Of a stretch of 64,000 nucleotides of DNA, positions 5,062 to 32,088 are shown piece after piece. Every line of letters begins with the position of its first letter. The stretch's first letter is position 1. Both the position numbers and the translations under genes were made by a program. Source of the DNA: Parapedobacter lycopersici (GTDB taxonomy: Bacteria > Bacteroidota > Bacteroidia > Sphingobacteriales > Sphingobacteriaceae); contig NZ_JAMSLW010000001.1 in the NCBI RefSeq assembly GCF_024643285.1, forward strand, positions 62,001-126,000. The letters are read 5' to 3'. Below the pieces are notes generated by a model. The model worked only from the letters and a program-made list of their open reading frames with translations. It was not told where the DNA came from and did not search any database.

Positions 5062-5391
5062 AATTAGCTGCTTTGATTCTGTATAGGTTCTGCTATGAAG
5101 TTTTGCGTAAATATACAACGTTTTTGTGATGCGGTTTGTTTTTTCGACTAAAAGACATGACCCCGTTCCCGGGTCCGGTACAGGCTGGTTCCTACCCGCT
5201 TCGGGACACCGTCGGAGTGAGTCCACGGTAAGTCCACCATGAGTCCACGTTGAGTCCACCTTTTGCCGAAGTTTTGCCGGACTCACCGTGTACCCAAACC
5301 GGACTTACCCTTGAGGTACCACGAAGCTTTTCCGTACGTGGCACGAAGTTGTCCAATGCAGCACACAGCTGGTTTATGCAGCGTAGTCGGC
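5062..5391. other. Intergenic region with short tandem repeats
   Basis: 330 bases without a convincing gene. It should hold the promoter of the AHSA1-type gene (a TATATTTA box on the minus strand near 5110-5120 is a weak candidate) and the 3' end of the MFS transcript. The middle contains four direct 11-base units, described separately. Confidence 0.5.
5219..5262. repeat. Four tandem 11-base units related to GAGTCCACSDT
   Basis: Four consecutive units without interruption start at 5219, 5230, 5241 and 5252; each carries (G/A)AGTCCAC followed by three variable bases. Two inverted relatives (GGACTCACC and GGACTTACC) follow around 5278-5305. The units do not code for a recognisable protein. Confidence 0.75.
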
Positions 5392-26676: not shown

Positions 26677-26981
26677 GTCGATGAAATTGCACAAAAGTAA
26701 ATTAAAAGGACGGTATTATCGTTAATGGGATAACACCCCTTAGCCTATTTTTTTCAGTCTTGTTTTGGTAGCATTTCAGGCTCAGTAGATACTTTGTATA
26801 TGTTTTTGAGAGGCGTGTAGATGCTGTGTATGGGGACAGTGATGCCTTAGGCGCGCCTATCCAGCTACCTTTGTCGTTCCCGAATCCGTTCGCATACCAA
26901 GGGTTGGTTGGAAGTATGGACAACCACAGGGTATAGCAGCGCCATCAGTGTTGGCAACACGCGGTTCGTATATCTACCAAT
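26677..26981. other. Intergenic region upstream of the type IX cargo gene
   Basis: 305 bases between divergent genes. It has no consensus promoter box that I trust and no conserved gene; a 73-codon reading frame on the minus strand has no family features. Confidence 0.5.
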
Positions 26982-29900
26982 ATGCAACGTATTGTATTGA
27001 CGTTTTTTTTTGTGTGGCTGTTATCCGGTGTCCGGACACAGGCGCAGACGATCATTTATGTTTCACCCGTGGGTGTCGGTAATGGCTCTTCTTGGACAAA
27101 TGCTTCCAATATAGCGAATGCGATAGCAACGGCTCCGGATAATGCGGAATTAAGATTACACGAGGGAGCATACAATATCACAACGACCTTGTCCATAACA
27201 CAAAGATTAACTATCAATGGTGGGTATACCGGCGTGGGAGCAAATCGAAACGTAACGGCCAATCCTTCGGTGTTGAACGGCGGTGGCAACACCCAAATCA
27301 TGGCGATTGACGCCGCAGGCGTTAAAATTGATGGGTTGACTTTTTTTGAAGGCTTCGCCGCAACGGGAGTCGATATGAATGACGGCACAGGCGGTGGTGC
27401 TATTTATATAAGTAGCAATGACGTAACCATAACTAACTCCATTTTTAGGAATAACGTTTCCGCGCATCGTATAGGCTCAGGTGCGATCTACTTATGGTCG
27501 TGTGACAATATTCAGATAGCGGATTGCTTATTCGAAAATAATAGGGTGGTTGAAAATGTGAGTACCGCTGGCAACATGGGAGGAGGAGCGATTCATATCC
27601 GATTTGGAAATAATACGCAGATAATCAATACAGTTTTTAGAAATAATGATTCGAGATATACAGGCGGGGCTATACATGACTGGGGAGTGGAAACCCGCTT
27701 TGAAAATTGTGTTTTTGAGGATAATGAGAGCGAAGAAGATGGTGGCGGATTATACTTACGAAGTGATCTTACTCATATTCATAACAGCAGATTTGAAGGT
27801 AATCAAGCTGTAAACGGTGGCGGTCTGGCAACCAATTTTGGAGGATTCAAAATTAGTGCTTCAACCTTCCATGGGAACAGCAGCCAAGATAAAGGTGGGG
27901 CGATTTATAATCACCGTTTCGCGGAACCCTCAACCATAGAACGGGTACAGTTCCATGAAAACGTGGCCGATCAGGGCGGTGCTGTCTATAATTATGGTGA
28001 AGAGGGGATAAAGGTGATCAGTTCGCTGTTTGTTGCCAATGAAGCAGCGGATAAGGGGGGAGCGATCTTCAATAACCGGTTTGTTGAAATTACGAATACT
28101 TCTTTTGTACGCAATACGAATACCGCATTGATCATGTCCCCCATTGGGCAGTCGGAATCTAATCACTGTGAAACTACTATTTTCAATTCCATTTTTTACT
28201 TGAATACGGCAAAAACCGGAGGGTACCGGCCGGATATCCATTCGGAAGATTTGGACATGGATTTAAGCACACAGCATGTCCGTCGAAATATATTGCAAGC
28301 GTATACGGGCACCGGTAATCAGGTGGGTGTTAATCCCATATTCGTCAATAACACCAATGATTTCAGACTGCAAGCCGCAAGCCCTGCTATCGATGCGGGC
28401 AGGGTTTCGTTATTTAACGGGGTTTCAGAGATGAATGCCGGGATTTCGACAGATTTAGACGGGAATGGACGGAATCAAGGTGCAAATATTGACATGGGGG
28501 CGTATGAAACTGACCCATCTACGATTGGAATTCCGGCATGTGTATTCATTACTGTGCCGGAAGAGGGCGCTGAAGACATCCCTCTTGCCACAGCAATCAC
28601 GTGGTCAGCAACTGGAGAGGCTACGGGTTACCGCATAACTATTGGTACGACTTCCGGTGGGACAGACATTGTTGACAACGAGGAAGTGATGGGGACGACT
28701 TATACCCCGGCAACCGATTGGAATGAAAACACCACCTACTTTGTTACTGTGGTGCCGTTCAATGCCGCTGGGGAAGCGGAAGGCTGTGCGGAGATCAGCT
28801 TCACGACAGAGACGCTGCTGACCACCCCGGAATGTACGGTCATCACGGGTCCGGTTGCAGGGGCGGAGGATGTGGCACTTGATGCGGTGATTACCTGGGA
28901 AGCAGTTACTGATGCTGAAGGCTATCGTGTTTTTGTCGGTACTACGAGCGGGGGCGTGGACATTGTGGATGGTGAGGAAGTAATTGGCACGACTTATACG
29001 CTGGCCAGCGGCTGGGCGGAAAGTACCACTTATTACGTGACGGTTGTGCCATTCAATGCGGCCGGCGAGGCCGCAGACTGTCCAGAGGTCCGCTTCACCA
29101 CGGAAACGCTGCTGGCGGCTCCGGAATGTACTGTCGTTACCAGTCCGGCCGCAGGGGGGGAGGATGTGGCACTTTATGCGGTGATTACCTGGGCAGCTGT
29201 TACTGATGCTGAAGGCTATCGTGTTTTTGTCGGTACTACGAGCGGGGGCGTGGACATTGTGGATGGTGAGGAAGTAATTGGCACGACTTATACGCTGGCC
29301 AGCGGCTGGGCGGAAAGTACCACTTATTACGTGACGGTTGTGCCATTCAATGCGGCCGGCGAGGCCGCAGACTGTCCAGAGGTCCGCTTCACCACGGAAA
29401 CGCTGCTGGCGGCTCCAGAATGTGCTGTCGTTACCAATCCTGGCGACGGGACAGAAAACGTGGCGCTTGATGCGGTGATTACGTGGGAAGCAGTTGCCGA
29501 TGCTGAGGGCTATCGTGTTTTTGTCGGCACCACGAGCGGGGGCGTGGACGTTGCGGACGGCGAGGAAGTGGCTGGCACGGCATTCGTTCCGGTCGGTGGC
29601 TGGGTGGAAAACACTATTTATTATGTGACTGTTGTGCCGTTTAATGCGGCCGGCGAGGCCGCAGACTGTCCAGAGGTCCGCTTCACCACGGAAACGCTGC
29701 TGACGGCTCCGGAATGTACTGTCGTTACCAGTCCGGCCGCAGGGGTGGAGGATGTGGCACTTAATGCGGTGATTACCTGGGGATCGGTTACTGATGCTGA
29801 AGGCTATCGCGTTTTTGTTGGCACCACGCCCGGTGGTACTGACGTTGCGGACGGCGAGGAAGAGACTGGCACGGCATTCGTTCCGGTCGGTGGCTGGGCG

Positions 29901-31178
29901 GAAAGCACCACTTATTATGTAACTATTGTGCCGTTCAATGATGCCGGTGAGGCCGCGGGTTGCGCGGAGATCAGTTTCACCACGGAAACGCTGCTGGCGG
30001 CTCCAGAATGTGCTGTCGTTACCAATCCTGGCGACGGGACAGAAAACGTGGCGCTTGATGCGGTGATTACGTGGGAAGCAGTTGCCGATGCTGAGGGCTA
30101 TCGTGTTTTTGTCGGCACCACGAGCGGGGGCGTGGACGTTGCGGACGGCGAGGAAGTGGCTGGCACGGCATTCGTTCCGGTCGGTGGCTGGGTGGAAAAC
30201 ACTATTTATTATGTGACTGTTGTGCCGTTTAATGCGGCAGGTGAGGCCATGGGTTGCGCGGAGATCAGCTTCACCACGGAAACGCTGCTGACAGCTCCGG
30301 GGTGTACGGTCATTACCGGTCCTGGTGATGGGGCAATGGATATTGATATAGACGCCGCGATTGTCTGGGGAGCTGTAAATGGTGTCGACGGTTACCGCAT
30401 TTACATCGGTACCTCGGCTGGTGGAACCGACATTGTGGATGGTGAAGAGGTGATTGGTACCAGCTATGCTCCCGCGGCCGGCTGGAAAGACAACACCACT
30501 TACTACGTAACCATCGTGCCGTTTAATGCAGCAGGCGAGGCTACAGATTGTTCAGAAATCAGCTTTACTACAGAAATCTTATCGACGGCTCCCGGATGCA
30601 CCACGATTATCAGTCCGGTTGACGGCGCCAATAGTGTTTCTCTTGATGCGGGAATTCGCTGGACGGCAGTTGCCGATGCGGAGGGCTATCGCATTGCTAT
30701 CGGCACAACGCCCGGTGGAACAGACGTCGTTAACAATGAGATCGTGACAGGAACCACATTTAATCCCGGGATTGTTTTTGCCGAAAACACGAGGTATTAC
30801 CTCAGGGTTACTCCTTTTAATGCGGTGGGAGAAGCAAGTGGATGTGGCCAGACCTGGTTTGTTGTTGTACCTGACAAAGCGATCACTCGGACTAAATATG
30901 GTATTTCTCCCAATGGAGACGGTATCCACGATTTCTGGGAAATCGACGGTATCGGACATTACCCTGATAATACGGTATCGATCTTCAATCGATGGGGGGA
31001 TATGGTATTTCATACCCGGCGTTACGATAATCATTCAAATGTATTTACTGGTGTAGCAAATAAACTGACCGGATTAGGCGCTGGGGTATTGCCTCCGGGC
31101 ACCTATTTTTTTAGCATCCAGTATCGGGATGGTCAGGAAGTGAAAAAAGTAGAAGGATTTTTGGTGTTAAGGCGCTAG
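26982..31178 (+). CDS. Large type IX-secreted beta-helix protein with eight Ig/FN3-like repeats
   Basis: A 1398-residue surface or secreted protein. A signal peptide (to about residue 22, ending RTQAQ) is followed by a right-handed parallel beta-helix domain (about 25-510). That domain carries many NxxF/GGAIY/GGGL turns, as in polymorphic or pectate-lyase-like outer proteins. Residues about 520-1298 consist of eight 98-residue repeats. The last about 95 residues (ISPNGDGIHDFWEIDG, VSIFNRWGDMVF, PPGTYFF and a final basic LRR) form the type-B sorting domain read by the type IX system ('gliding motility-associated C-terminal domain'). The gene directly downstream encodes a PorP/SprF partner, the usual pairing for type-B cargo. 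The function is probably adhesion or surface binding; no catalytic motif is evident. Confidence 0.93.
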   Translation: MQRIVLTFFFVWLLSGVRTQAQTIIYVSPVGVGNGSSWTNASNIANAIATAPDNAELRLHEGAYNITTTLSITQRLTINGGYTGVGANRNVTANPSVLNGGGNTQIMAIDAAGVKIDGLTFFEGFAATGVDMNDGTGGGAIYISSNDVTITNSIFRNNVSAHRIGSGAIYLWSCDNIQIADCLFENNRVVENVSTAGNMGGGAIHIRFGNNTQIINTVFRNNDSRYTGGAIHDWGVETRFENCVFEDNESEEDGGGLYLRSDLTHIHNSRFEGNQAVNGGGLATNFGGFKISASTFHGNSSQDKGGAIYNHRFAEPSTIERVQFHENVADQGGAVYNYGEEGIKVISSLFVANEAADKGGAIFNNRFVEITNTSFVRNTNTALIMSPIGQSESNHCETTIFNSIFYLNTAKTGGYRPDIHSEDLDMDLSTQHVRRNILQAYTGTGNQVGVNPIFVNNTNDFRLQAASPAIDAGRVSLFNGVSEMNAGISTDLDGNGRNQGANIDMGAYETDPSTIGIPACVFITVPEEGAEDIPLATAITWSATGEATGYRITIGTTSGGTDIVDNEEVMGTTYTPATDWNENTTYFVTVVPFNAAGEAEGCAEISFTTETLLTTPECTVITGPVAGAEDVALDAVITWEAVTDAEGYRVFVGTTSGGVDIVDGEEVIGTTYTLASGWAESTTYYVTVVPFNAAGEAADCPEVRFTTETLLAAPECTVVTSPAAGGEDVALYAVITWAAVTDAEGYRVFVGTTSGGVDIVDGEEVIGTTYTLASGWAESTTYYVTVVPFNAAGEAADCPEVRFTTETLLAAPECAVVTNPGDGTENVALDAVITWEAVADAEGYRVFVGTTSGGVDVADGEEVAGTAFVPVGGWVENTIYYVTVVPFNAAGEAADCPEVRFTTETLLTAPECTVVTSPAAGVEDVALNAVITWGSVTDAEGYRVFVGTTPGGTDVADGEEETGTAFVPVGGWAESTTYYVTIVPFNDAGEAAGCAEISFTTETLLAAPECAVVTNPGDGTENVALDAVITWEAVADAEGYRVFVGTTSGGVDVADGEEVAGTAFVPVGGWVENTIYYVTVVPFNAAGEAMGCAEISFTTETLLTAPGCTVITGPGDGAMDIDIDAAIVWGAVNGVDGYRIYIGTSAGGTDIVDGEEVIGTSYAPAAGWKDNTTYYVTIVPFNAAGEATDCSEISFTTEILSTAPGCTTIISPVDGANSVSLDAGIRWTAVADAEGYRIAIGTTPGGTDVVNNEIVTGTTFNPGIVFAENTRYYLRVTPFNAVGEASGCGQTWFVVVPDKAITRTKYGISPNGDGIHDFWEIDGIGHYPDNTVSIFNRWGDMVFHTRRYDNHSNVFTGVANKLTGLGAGVLPPGTYFFSIQYRDGQEVKKVEGFLVLRR
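28539..30877 (+). repeat. Eight in-frame tandem repeats of 294 bases
   Basis: Units start at 28539, 28833, 29127, 29421, 29715, 30009, 30303 and 30597, exactly 294 bases apart; the eighth is slightly shorter. Each encodes a domain with TTSGG-x-D, an acidic turn, and YVTVVPFNAAGEA-like strands. Units 2 and 3 are nearly identical from about residue 25 onward, and units 4 and 6 over about 80 residues, while 1, 7 and 8 are diverged. This mosaic suggests recent duplication or gene conversion. Confidence 0.95.
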
Positions 31179-31188
31179 CATAAACAGG

Positions 31189-32088
31189 ATGAAACAAGTG
31201 ATAATGTGGTTTTTTGTGTTTTGGGGTTCGCCCGCAGTATTTGCTCAGCAGACACCGTTGTTTGCAGAATACGATTACAATCCGTTTATTATCAATCCCG
31301 CTTACGCCGGGATGGCTGCTGGATCAGTCGTTAGCCTGAGCCACCAACGATACACCCGCAATATAGACGGTGCGCCACGAAGTTCGGCAATGAGTATTCA
31401 TTCCCCTTTATCAAACGGCAGAATGGGACTGGGAGCGGCTATCGTTGACGATAGAATTGGAGTCACCACTGTCACGGATGCTGTTTTAGCTTATTCTTAT
31501 CAATTATTCTTTGATCTTAAACGCAACCGCCCGTATTGGGAAATGTATGACCAGCATGTGTTTTCCTTTGGGGTGACCGCTGGCATGAAGCGGCTTCATG
31601 AAAACCTGCTGGAACTGGGAGTTGATGATGACCCTGCATTTGCAGACAACCTTTCCGAAATGATTCCGGTAGTCGGGGCTGGTTTTTTATACAATAAGGT
31701 TGGGTTTTACATCGGTGTCTCCATTCCCAATCTGCTGGGAGGTAAACTGGCGTCGAGAAATAACCTGAACTTATCGACCCCTGTTTATGGTTACTTCGGA
31801 TATCGGTTTTTTACTGATCTGTATAAAGAAAATATGATTAGACCCAGTGTGCTGGTGAAATATGAAAAAGGGGCGCCGGTACAGGTAGATATGAACCTTG
31901 CAGTCACATTTAGGAATAAATTTGAGGTCGGCGCAGGGTACCGAAGTAGTTCTTCAGTAAATTTTTTGGTGGGACTATATCCGATTGAACGGCTTCGGGT
32001 GATCTATCATTACAATGTTGGTCTTAAACGTCCTGTATTGGGTAATAATCATGGTCTTGTTTTATCCTATGCGTTTGGTTATGAATAA
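31189..32088 (+). CDS. PorP/SprF family type IX secretion membrane protein
   Basis: A 299-residue outer-membrane protein with a signal peptide cut near AQQ. The hallmark N-terminus LFAEYDYNPFIINPAYAG and the QRYTRNIDGAPRS block are as in PorP/SprF proteins, which form a barrel that anchors or helps present type-B cargo. Alternating hydrophobic strands continue to a C-terminal aromatic (FGYE). It starts 11 bases after the giant cargo gene and is surely in its operon. Confidence 0.94.
   Translation: MKQVIMWFFVFWGSPAVFAQQTPLFAEYDYNPFIINPAYAGMAAGSVVSLSHQRYTRNIDGAPRSSAMSIHSPLSNGRMGLGAAIVDDRIGVTTVTDAVLAYSYQLFFDLKRNRPYWEMYDQHVFSFGVTAGMKRLHENLLELGVDDDPAFADNLSEMIPVVGAGFLYNKVGFYIGVSIPNLLGGKLASRNNLNLSTPVYGYFGYRFFTDLYKENMIRPSVLVKYEKGAPVQVDMNLAVTFRNKFEVGAGYRSSSSVNFLVGLYPIERLRVIYHYNVGLKRPVLGNNHGLVLSYAFGYE

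Follow-up and report, generated by a model that had tools for sequence, protein, structure and literature searches.

The 64,000-nucleotide (nt) stretch of Parapedobacter lycopersici DNA analysed here (contig NZ_JAMSLW010000001.1, positions 62,001 to 126,000; hereafter the window) carried on its forward strand an adhesin coding sequence of 1398 amino acids (aa; window positions 26982-31178), identified from its open reading frame, which was intact over all 1398 aa, and from Pfam and NCBIfam matches. The encoded protein was read, with a probability of about two in three, as a type IX adhesin with a head, a stalk of fibronectin-III (FN3)-fold units under concerted evolution and a mostly fixed last unit. 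The domain order, a unit number that differed between species, the homogenisation of units within species and the grouping of the last unit by position in three of four species were observed directly. The protein is an ordinary-sized type IX adhesin of a known kind, with well-marked concerted evolution. Throughout, G000 denotes the window's own genome and the other G numbers denote the genomes compared, one genome per species; all features of the window given below lie on the forward strand.

Repeat array

Eight consecutive units without insertions or deletions (indels), each of exactly 98 aa (294 nt), extended from 28539 to 30890, in agreement with the eight repeats exactly 294 bases apart described in an earlier note on this DNA. 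Tandem Repeats Finder returned a period of 294 with 0% indels (score 1957) and detected only the more alike part of the array (28725-30322; 5.4 copies). DNA identity was 95.9% between units 2 (28833-29126) and 3 (29127-29420), 94.9% between units 4 (29421-29714) and 6 (30009-30302), and 77-83% in the remaining eight pairs within units 2-6; unit 5 (29715-30008) differed from units 4 and 6, which flank it. Unit 1 (28539-28832) was diverged (62-65% identity with units 2-7), as were unit 7 (30303-30596; 64-68% with units 2-6) and the membrane-proximal unit 8 (30597-30890; 54-58% with all others). Identity exceeded 90% in only 2 of the 28 unit pairs.

An exact tract of 218 base pairs (bp) was shared by units 2 and 3 (28905-29122 and 29199-29416), and another of 263 bp by units 4 and 6, two units away (29388-29650 and 29976-30238). 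A 60-bp tract at 29643-29702 recurred at 29055-29114 and at 29349-29408. In the mosaic map, the first 42 nt of unit 3 were nearest unit 5 (1 mismatch) and the rest of it nearest unit 2, and the final 84 nt of unit 4 were nearest units 2 and 3. The earlier note had described units 2/3 and 4/6 as nearly identical over long stretches of DNA, units 1, 7 and 8 as diverged and the repeats as mosaic; the exact tracts, the 54-68% identity of units 1, 7 and 8 and the sub-unit patches in the conversion test bore out all three.

Probable copying between units

The exact runs shared by units 2/3 and 4/6 were longer than their numbers of mismatches predict (143 and 152 polymorphic sites vs. shuffled means of 47.1 and 40.2; global P = 0.0006 and 0.0002, respectively) in a GENECONV-type column shuffle written for this analysis (5000 shuffles; G002 unit 1, of 297 nt, and all of G006 were omitted). 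Shorter patches tied unit 4 to unit 2 (global P = 0.0014) and to unit 3 (global P = 0.0016). The earlier note had proposed conversion tests and pairwise ratios of non-synonymous to synonymous divergence (dN/dS) between units; the latter gave 0.24-0.38 across the ten pairs within units 2-6 of G000, which are thus under constraint. A dN/dS below 1 is what would be expected if the units were kept alike solely by purifying selection on the protein. Silent sites, however, were identical in tracts, with 0 differences over the 263 bp of the 4/6 tract, while unit 5 differed at 31% of silent sites from unit 4 and at 29% from unit 6, and inner units mostly grouped by species. Protein-only selection was contradicted by the silent-site identity and was rejected, with next to no chance of being sufficient.

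Alike pairs two units apart (lag-2) were present in all three uninterrupted complete arrays examined: units 4/6 in G000 (94.9%), 7/9 in G002 (99.3%, with 307 bp exact) and 3/5 in G014 (89.8%); G198 and G210 were not examined for this likeness. Alike units at this very distance would also result if two units were duplicated in tandem (3-4 giving 5-6, or 4-5 giving 6-7) and the companion unit later diverged or was overwritten. Plain two-unit duplication was nevertheless disfavoured because the in-between companion units were not correspondingly alike: 82.3% for 3/5 and 65.6% for 5/7 in G000, 76.5% for 6/8 and 58.5% for 8/10 in G002, and, more weakly, 84.4% for 2/4 and 66.3% for 4/6 in G014. In its plain form it was rejected for G000 and G002, and weakly for G014. 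Moreover, the G000 pair lacked any silent change over 263 bp, so that overwriting of the companion has to be assumed, and duplication with such overwriting was considered improbable. Patches copied between units would need the fewest extra steps to explain the data. The earlier note had left the likeness of units 4 and 6 to either gene conversion or a two-unit duplication; gene conversion is favoured, and the duplication fares poorly on its companion units.

Collapse of the array during assembly, which the earlier note had not raised, would account for the same tracts differently. The G000 assembly comprised 22 contigs, and scoring 20 of 66 candidates gave one 16S match, which lies 473 bases into contig 3; it looks like a short-read assembly in which the array may be collapsed, which counts against copying of patches and makes the unit copy number in this assembly uncertain. 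The true array would then hold two or more full 588-bp two-unit blocks from tandem duplication, folded by short reads to one and a half copies, and the 263-bp identity would represent only the overhang of a final incomplete copy. Directly after a duplication, identity has to span one period (588 or 294 bp) or more, and the window has only 263 and 218 bp; the G006 assembly also breaks inside the same array, with a run of 10 N (L048 1-230, L049 1-60). The same kind of footprint was, however, present in G014, whose assembly in one contig with three 16S matches is probably a complete long-read genome: an adjacent exact run of 203 bp, below the 294-nt period, and a lag-2 stretch of 211 bp with 2 mismatches. 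The G014 footprint supports real sub-unit patches, without proving the copy number in the window. Collapse would also leave unexplained the shorter patches of G000 at the start of unit 3, nearest unit 5, and at the end of unit 4, nearest units 2/3, and was judged unlikely; copying of patches between units was retained as the preferred explanation.

Unit trees

In a protein tree and a DNA tree of the units (support given as bootstrap/Shimodaira-Hasegawa-like approximate likelihood ratio test; partial G006 units excluded, G198 and G210 units in the protein tree only), inner units grouped mostly by species. Units 2-6 of G000 formed one clade (99/99 protein, 100/99 DNA), as did all six G014 units (99/98 protein, 100/99 DNA) and units 2-4 of G006 (98/91 protein, 100/97 DNA). 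The last units of G000, G002 and G006 clustered together (100/98 protein, 100/99 DNA), i.e., by position in three of the four species. As read from these trees, the within-species homogenisation of stalk units with a fixed last unit is concerted evolution with a locked base. Constant repeat number and order with clock-like divergence between units, the pattern that the earlier note had named as speaking against its view, was not seen between species. The last unit may be conserved by position because it is possibly part of a secretion and targeting signal: unit 8 to the C-terminus measured 193 aa, and type B signals are reported to reach up to 235 aa in a passage of PMC12618676. Unit 8 plausibly belongs to such an extended signal.

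Fold of the units

By prediction, the units have a fibronectin-III fold. An AlphaFold2 model of units 4-6 (input: six overlapping three-unit rows, all from the window) had the best predicted local distance difference test score (pLDDT 89.8) and a predicted template modelling score (pTM) of 0.51; the other four of five unit models had pLDDT of 88.5, 78.1, 42.4 and 41.9. The best Foldseek match of the unit model was human fibronectin FN3 10-12 (E = 2.1e-11), VIA-align matched it to the titin FnIII tandem 8bnq_A (Z = 12.5; 267 aligned; root-mean-square deviation 4.5), and the unit profile matched Dscam FN3 among PDB sequences (E = 3.5e-5). Pfam Big_5 (PF13205) was passed by the whole window protein (48.6 bits; cut-off 23.6), and single units were below its cut-off (14.7-23.1 bits) in the five tested, namely window units 1, 4 and 8 and one unit each of G002 and G014. 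The same five units missed fn3 (PF00041; gathering 25 bits), with 19.8 bits for unit 1 and units 4 and 8 unlisted, and fn3 was unlisted for the whole window protein in the Pfam search. The whole G002, G014 and G198 proteins passed both fn3 and Big_5. Cysteines C1 and C83 (unit positions) were invariant in 24 of 24 aligned units from three species and would be joined by a disulfide.

Several results weighed against the reading of an FN3-fold stalk under concerted evolution with a fixed last unit. Two of the five models were poor, and Foldseek TM-scores across three domains were low (about 0.3), which may be because inter-domain angles differ or are poorly predicted. The last unit of G014 clustered with its own species and not by position. 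Units 4-9 of G002 formed no clade of their own in either tree, and in the protein tree they stood in an open fork with units 1-4 of G006 (88/85). The contrast between lag-2 and companion pairs was small in G014 (89.8% vs. 84.4%), and the four whole leading units of G006 showed no alternation, units 2, 3 and 4 being all 94-97% alike. The GC content of third codon positions (GC3) was higher in inner units than in the last unit in G000 and G006 and unclear in G002 and G014; GC-biased gene conversion was not claimed, the GC3 pattern being inconsistent between the four species.

Secretion and the base

A probable Sec signal peptide (aa 1-21; 26982-27044) was read from the sequence by its charged start, hydrophobic core and small residue at the end. 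At the other end, a CHU_C or type B type IX secretion system (T9SS) sorting domain occupied aa 1307-1398 (30900-31175), with 77.1 bits for PF13585 (cut-off 27; E = 1.1e-21) and 44.8 bits for TIGR04131 (cut-off 35; E = 1e-11). A gene for a PorP/SprF family outer-membrane protein (31189-32088; PF11751 E = 1.7e-51, TIGR03519 E = 3.4e-56), the probable dedicated shuttle and anchor of the adhesin, began 10 nt past the adhesin stop codon. The SprA translocon was found in G000 (TIGR04189, 2713.5 bits, cut-off 200, at G000:C12), with no match in 14 control genomes. The sorting domain, the adjoining PorP/SprF gene and SprA in the genome mark the protein as a type B substrate of type IX secretion, and the earlier note was right in calling it type IX secreted. 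It was mistaken in calling it a giant: 1398 aa is moderate, and open frames with domains of the same family reached 2,000-3,800 aa in the class search.

Portions of PMC12618676 and PMC9143113 report that the type B substrates tested need, and bind, a cognate PorP/SprF shuttle, and that this shuttle is often encoded directly downstream of the substrate. A PorP/SprF gene stood directly downstream of the adhesin in G000, G002, G006 and G014; no PorP match was found on the G198 contig carrying the adhesin-like gene, and the nearest PorP match in G210 was about 90 kb off. The window protein would be anchored by its neighbouring PorP. PorP-family matches occupied seven places in the G000 genome. Beside another type B adhesin frame of G000 stood a decayed-looking shuttle gene of the PorP/SprF family with three in-frame TAA stops (L002 1851-2717; G000:C16:423679-424545). 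Seven partial PorP-family matches below the cut-off were present on contigs C4, C5, C6 and C7 of G006, including one where a contig begins (C6:24-299); they suggest decayed or broken copies of the partners of other adhesins.

Head

The head (27045-28538) is probably a right-handed β-helix, a name taken from family matches above cut-off to Chlam_PMP (PF02415) and choice_anch_Q (NF041518), and probably binds a target. The β-helix head proposed in the earlier note was supported by these matches, and the fold model was too poor to show it: with a pLDDT of 48.6 for the single-sequence model, little can be read into its weak Foldseek hits, which were β-helix enzymes and tailspikes.

Silent divergence of the head between G000 and G006 was 0.53 (about 195 of 370 sites), vs. 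0.64-0.85 in eight other window genes. This baseline is narrow: the stretches searched for 14 window genes (head included) had all been chosen by DNA match, the head and eight others matched and five did not, and some of those eight may be paralogues (e.g., a histidine kinase with 51% aa identity). Fisher tests of the head against the eight genes were clear in seven (P = 1.7e-7 to 5e-18), and the eighth gave P = 0.052. Divergence was 0.48-0.58 in all six segments of the head and 0.71 and 0.52 in the two halves of unit 1, the second half being as low as the head; it was 0.76 in the last unit, 0.88 in the C-terminal domain (CTD) and 0.80 in PorP. A change-point scan placed the rise in divergence at 28292 when one point was allowed (a signal equalled in 0 of 500 shuffles) or at 28527-28680 when two were, and the border of the putative exchange is not fixed because these placements differ. 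A six-row head tree was poorly resolved, with the three genus members kept as a possible single clade by the approximately unbiased test (p = 0.111), so that the case for exchange is made from silent-site divergence. This divergence suggests that the head was exchanged between the G000 and G006 lineages. The window adhesin has an EamA gene beside it; the G002 contig that carries the adhesin also has a homologue of this gene, some 17 kb ahead of the adhesin and with the relative orientation conserved, suggesting that the base has kept its position.

Proposed model

After its signal peptide, the protein would carry a probable binding head of β-helix type, an FN3-fold stalk and a C-terminal type B signal, which the neighbouring PorP/SprF protein would handle. 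In the stalk, DNA would be copied between units of one array, in patches possibly smaller than a unit and able to skip a unit. Whole units would be gained and lost, always by 294 nt, preserving the frame. The membrane-proximal unit would be exempt from copying in most of the species compared and plausibly part of the extended secretion and targeting signal. How far the head reaches would depend on stalk length, an idea put forward for Periscope Proteins in passages of PMC8201768 and PMC9704523. It is possible, if on the doubtful side, that the gene consists of three separately evolving layers: a head exchanged between species, a self-overwriting stalk of changing unit number with copying that can also skip a unit, and a base that stays fixed and comprises the last FN3 unit, the type B signal and the PorP partner. 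On this view, the last unit would stay fixed as a component of the secretion and targeting signal.

Comparison with known systems

The window pair resembles SprB/SprF of Flavobacterium johnsoniae and other pairs of a type B CTD adhesin and a PorP-like protein, as described in parts of PMC9143113 and PMC12618676, in having a type B CTD substrate that is repetitive and a predicted adhesin, with the PorP/SprF gene directly downstream. SprB differs in being, in the same passages, a 669-kDa gliding adhesin, the window protein having 1398 aa, a PMP-type head and FN3-like units.

Periscope Proteins (e.g., Sgo_0707, with SHIRT repeats) are likewise described, in parts of PMC8201768 and PMC9704523, as rods of similar domains in tandem, each longer than 50 residues, that bear a functional domain; their repeat number differs among relatives, and recombination between repeats has been proposed. 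The eight 98-aa units of the window exceed 50 residues, and a rod is represented by a predicted FN3 chain with a pTM of only 0.51. Identity between repeats was about 95% for pairs 2/3 and 4/6, 77-83% for other inner pairs and 54-68% for pairs with unit 1, 7 or 8. Periscope repeats are described as highly identical, with strain-level variation seen by long reads, whereas 2 of 28 pairs exceeded 90% in the window array and the comparison covered species, with one genome each. Length variation in Periscope Proteins is ascribed, in those passages, to recombination of near-identical repeats; here there were signs of copying, also across a unit, with the membrane-proximal unit mostly fixed. The strings "Bacteroid-" and "gene conversion" were absent from the main text of both papers.

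Bacterial surface fn3 (PF00041) and Big_5 (PF13205) domains are alike in predicted fold, and the window units differ from them by two invariant cysteines each. Nothing on point was found in the open-licence literature for type IX adhesin repeats with recombination, for type IX FN3 repeats with a gliding motility-associated C-terminal domain or for Bacteroidetes FN3 repeats with gene conversion; absence from print is not claimed.

Relatives and unit numbers

All nine genomes of the genus (own included) matched somewhere, mostly via the sorting domain; among the other genus genomes, relatives matching along both head and stalk were present in G002 and G006. Across 399 genomes of the family (own included), 6 matched the unit profile at E = 1e-12 and 8 matched the head at E = 1e-20; a long stalk query, run on 151 genomes, had matches in 4 at E = 1e-15. 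G139, among the eight genomes with a head match, was not included in the comparison, and G208, which was included, gave no unit match. In the class search (own included), the unit-family domain was present in 36 of 395 genomes at E = 1e-12, and the domain itself is therefore common. A contig scan for further relatives gave a single weak Desulfoluna locus, which was not used.

The number of units was 8 in G000, 10 in G002, 6 in G014 and four in G210. The earlier note had suggested that repeat number may vary between strains; the differences seen here were between species. At least 7 units were counted in G006 (four whole leading units, the last one, and pieces at contig ends), a minimum because the assembly breaks inside the array. 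In G198, two plus two units stood around other domains; its adhesin-like gene (L062 4111-8757) had the same head and unit families on a different base, with Ig_7 stretches, MBG domains and another CHU_C tail.

Other observations

A possible promoter element, a 14-base stretch at 26785-26798, lies about 185 bases before the adhesin start codon; it also preceded the G002 gene, and similar stretches were present ahead of the genes in G006 and G014. Elsewhere in the window, a short tandem repeat of 22 bases in two copies was present at 5218-5260.

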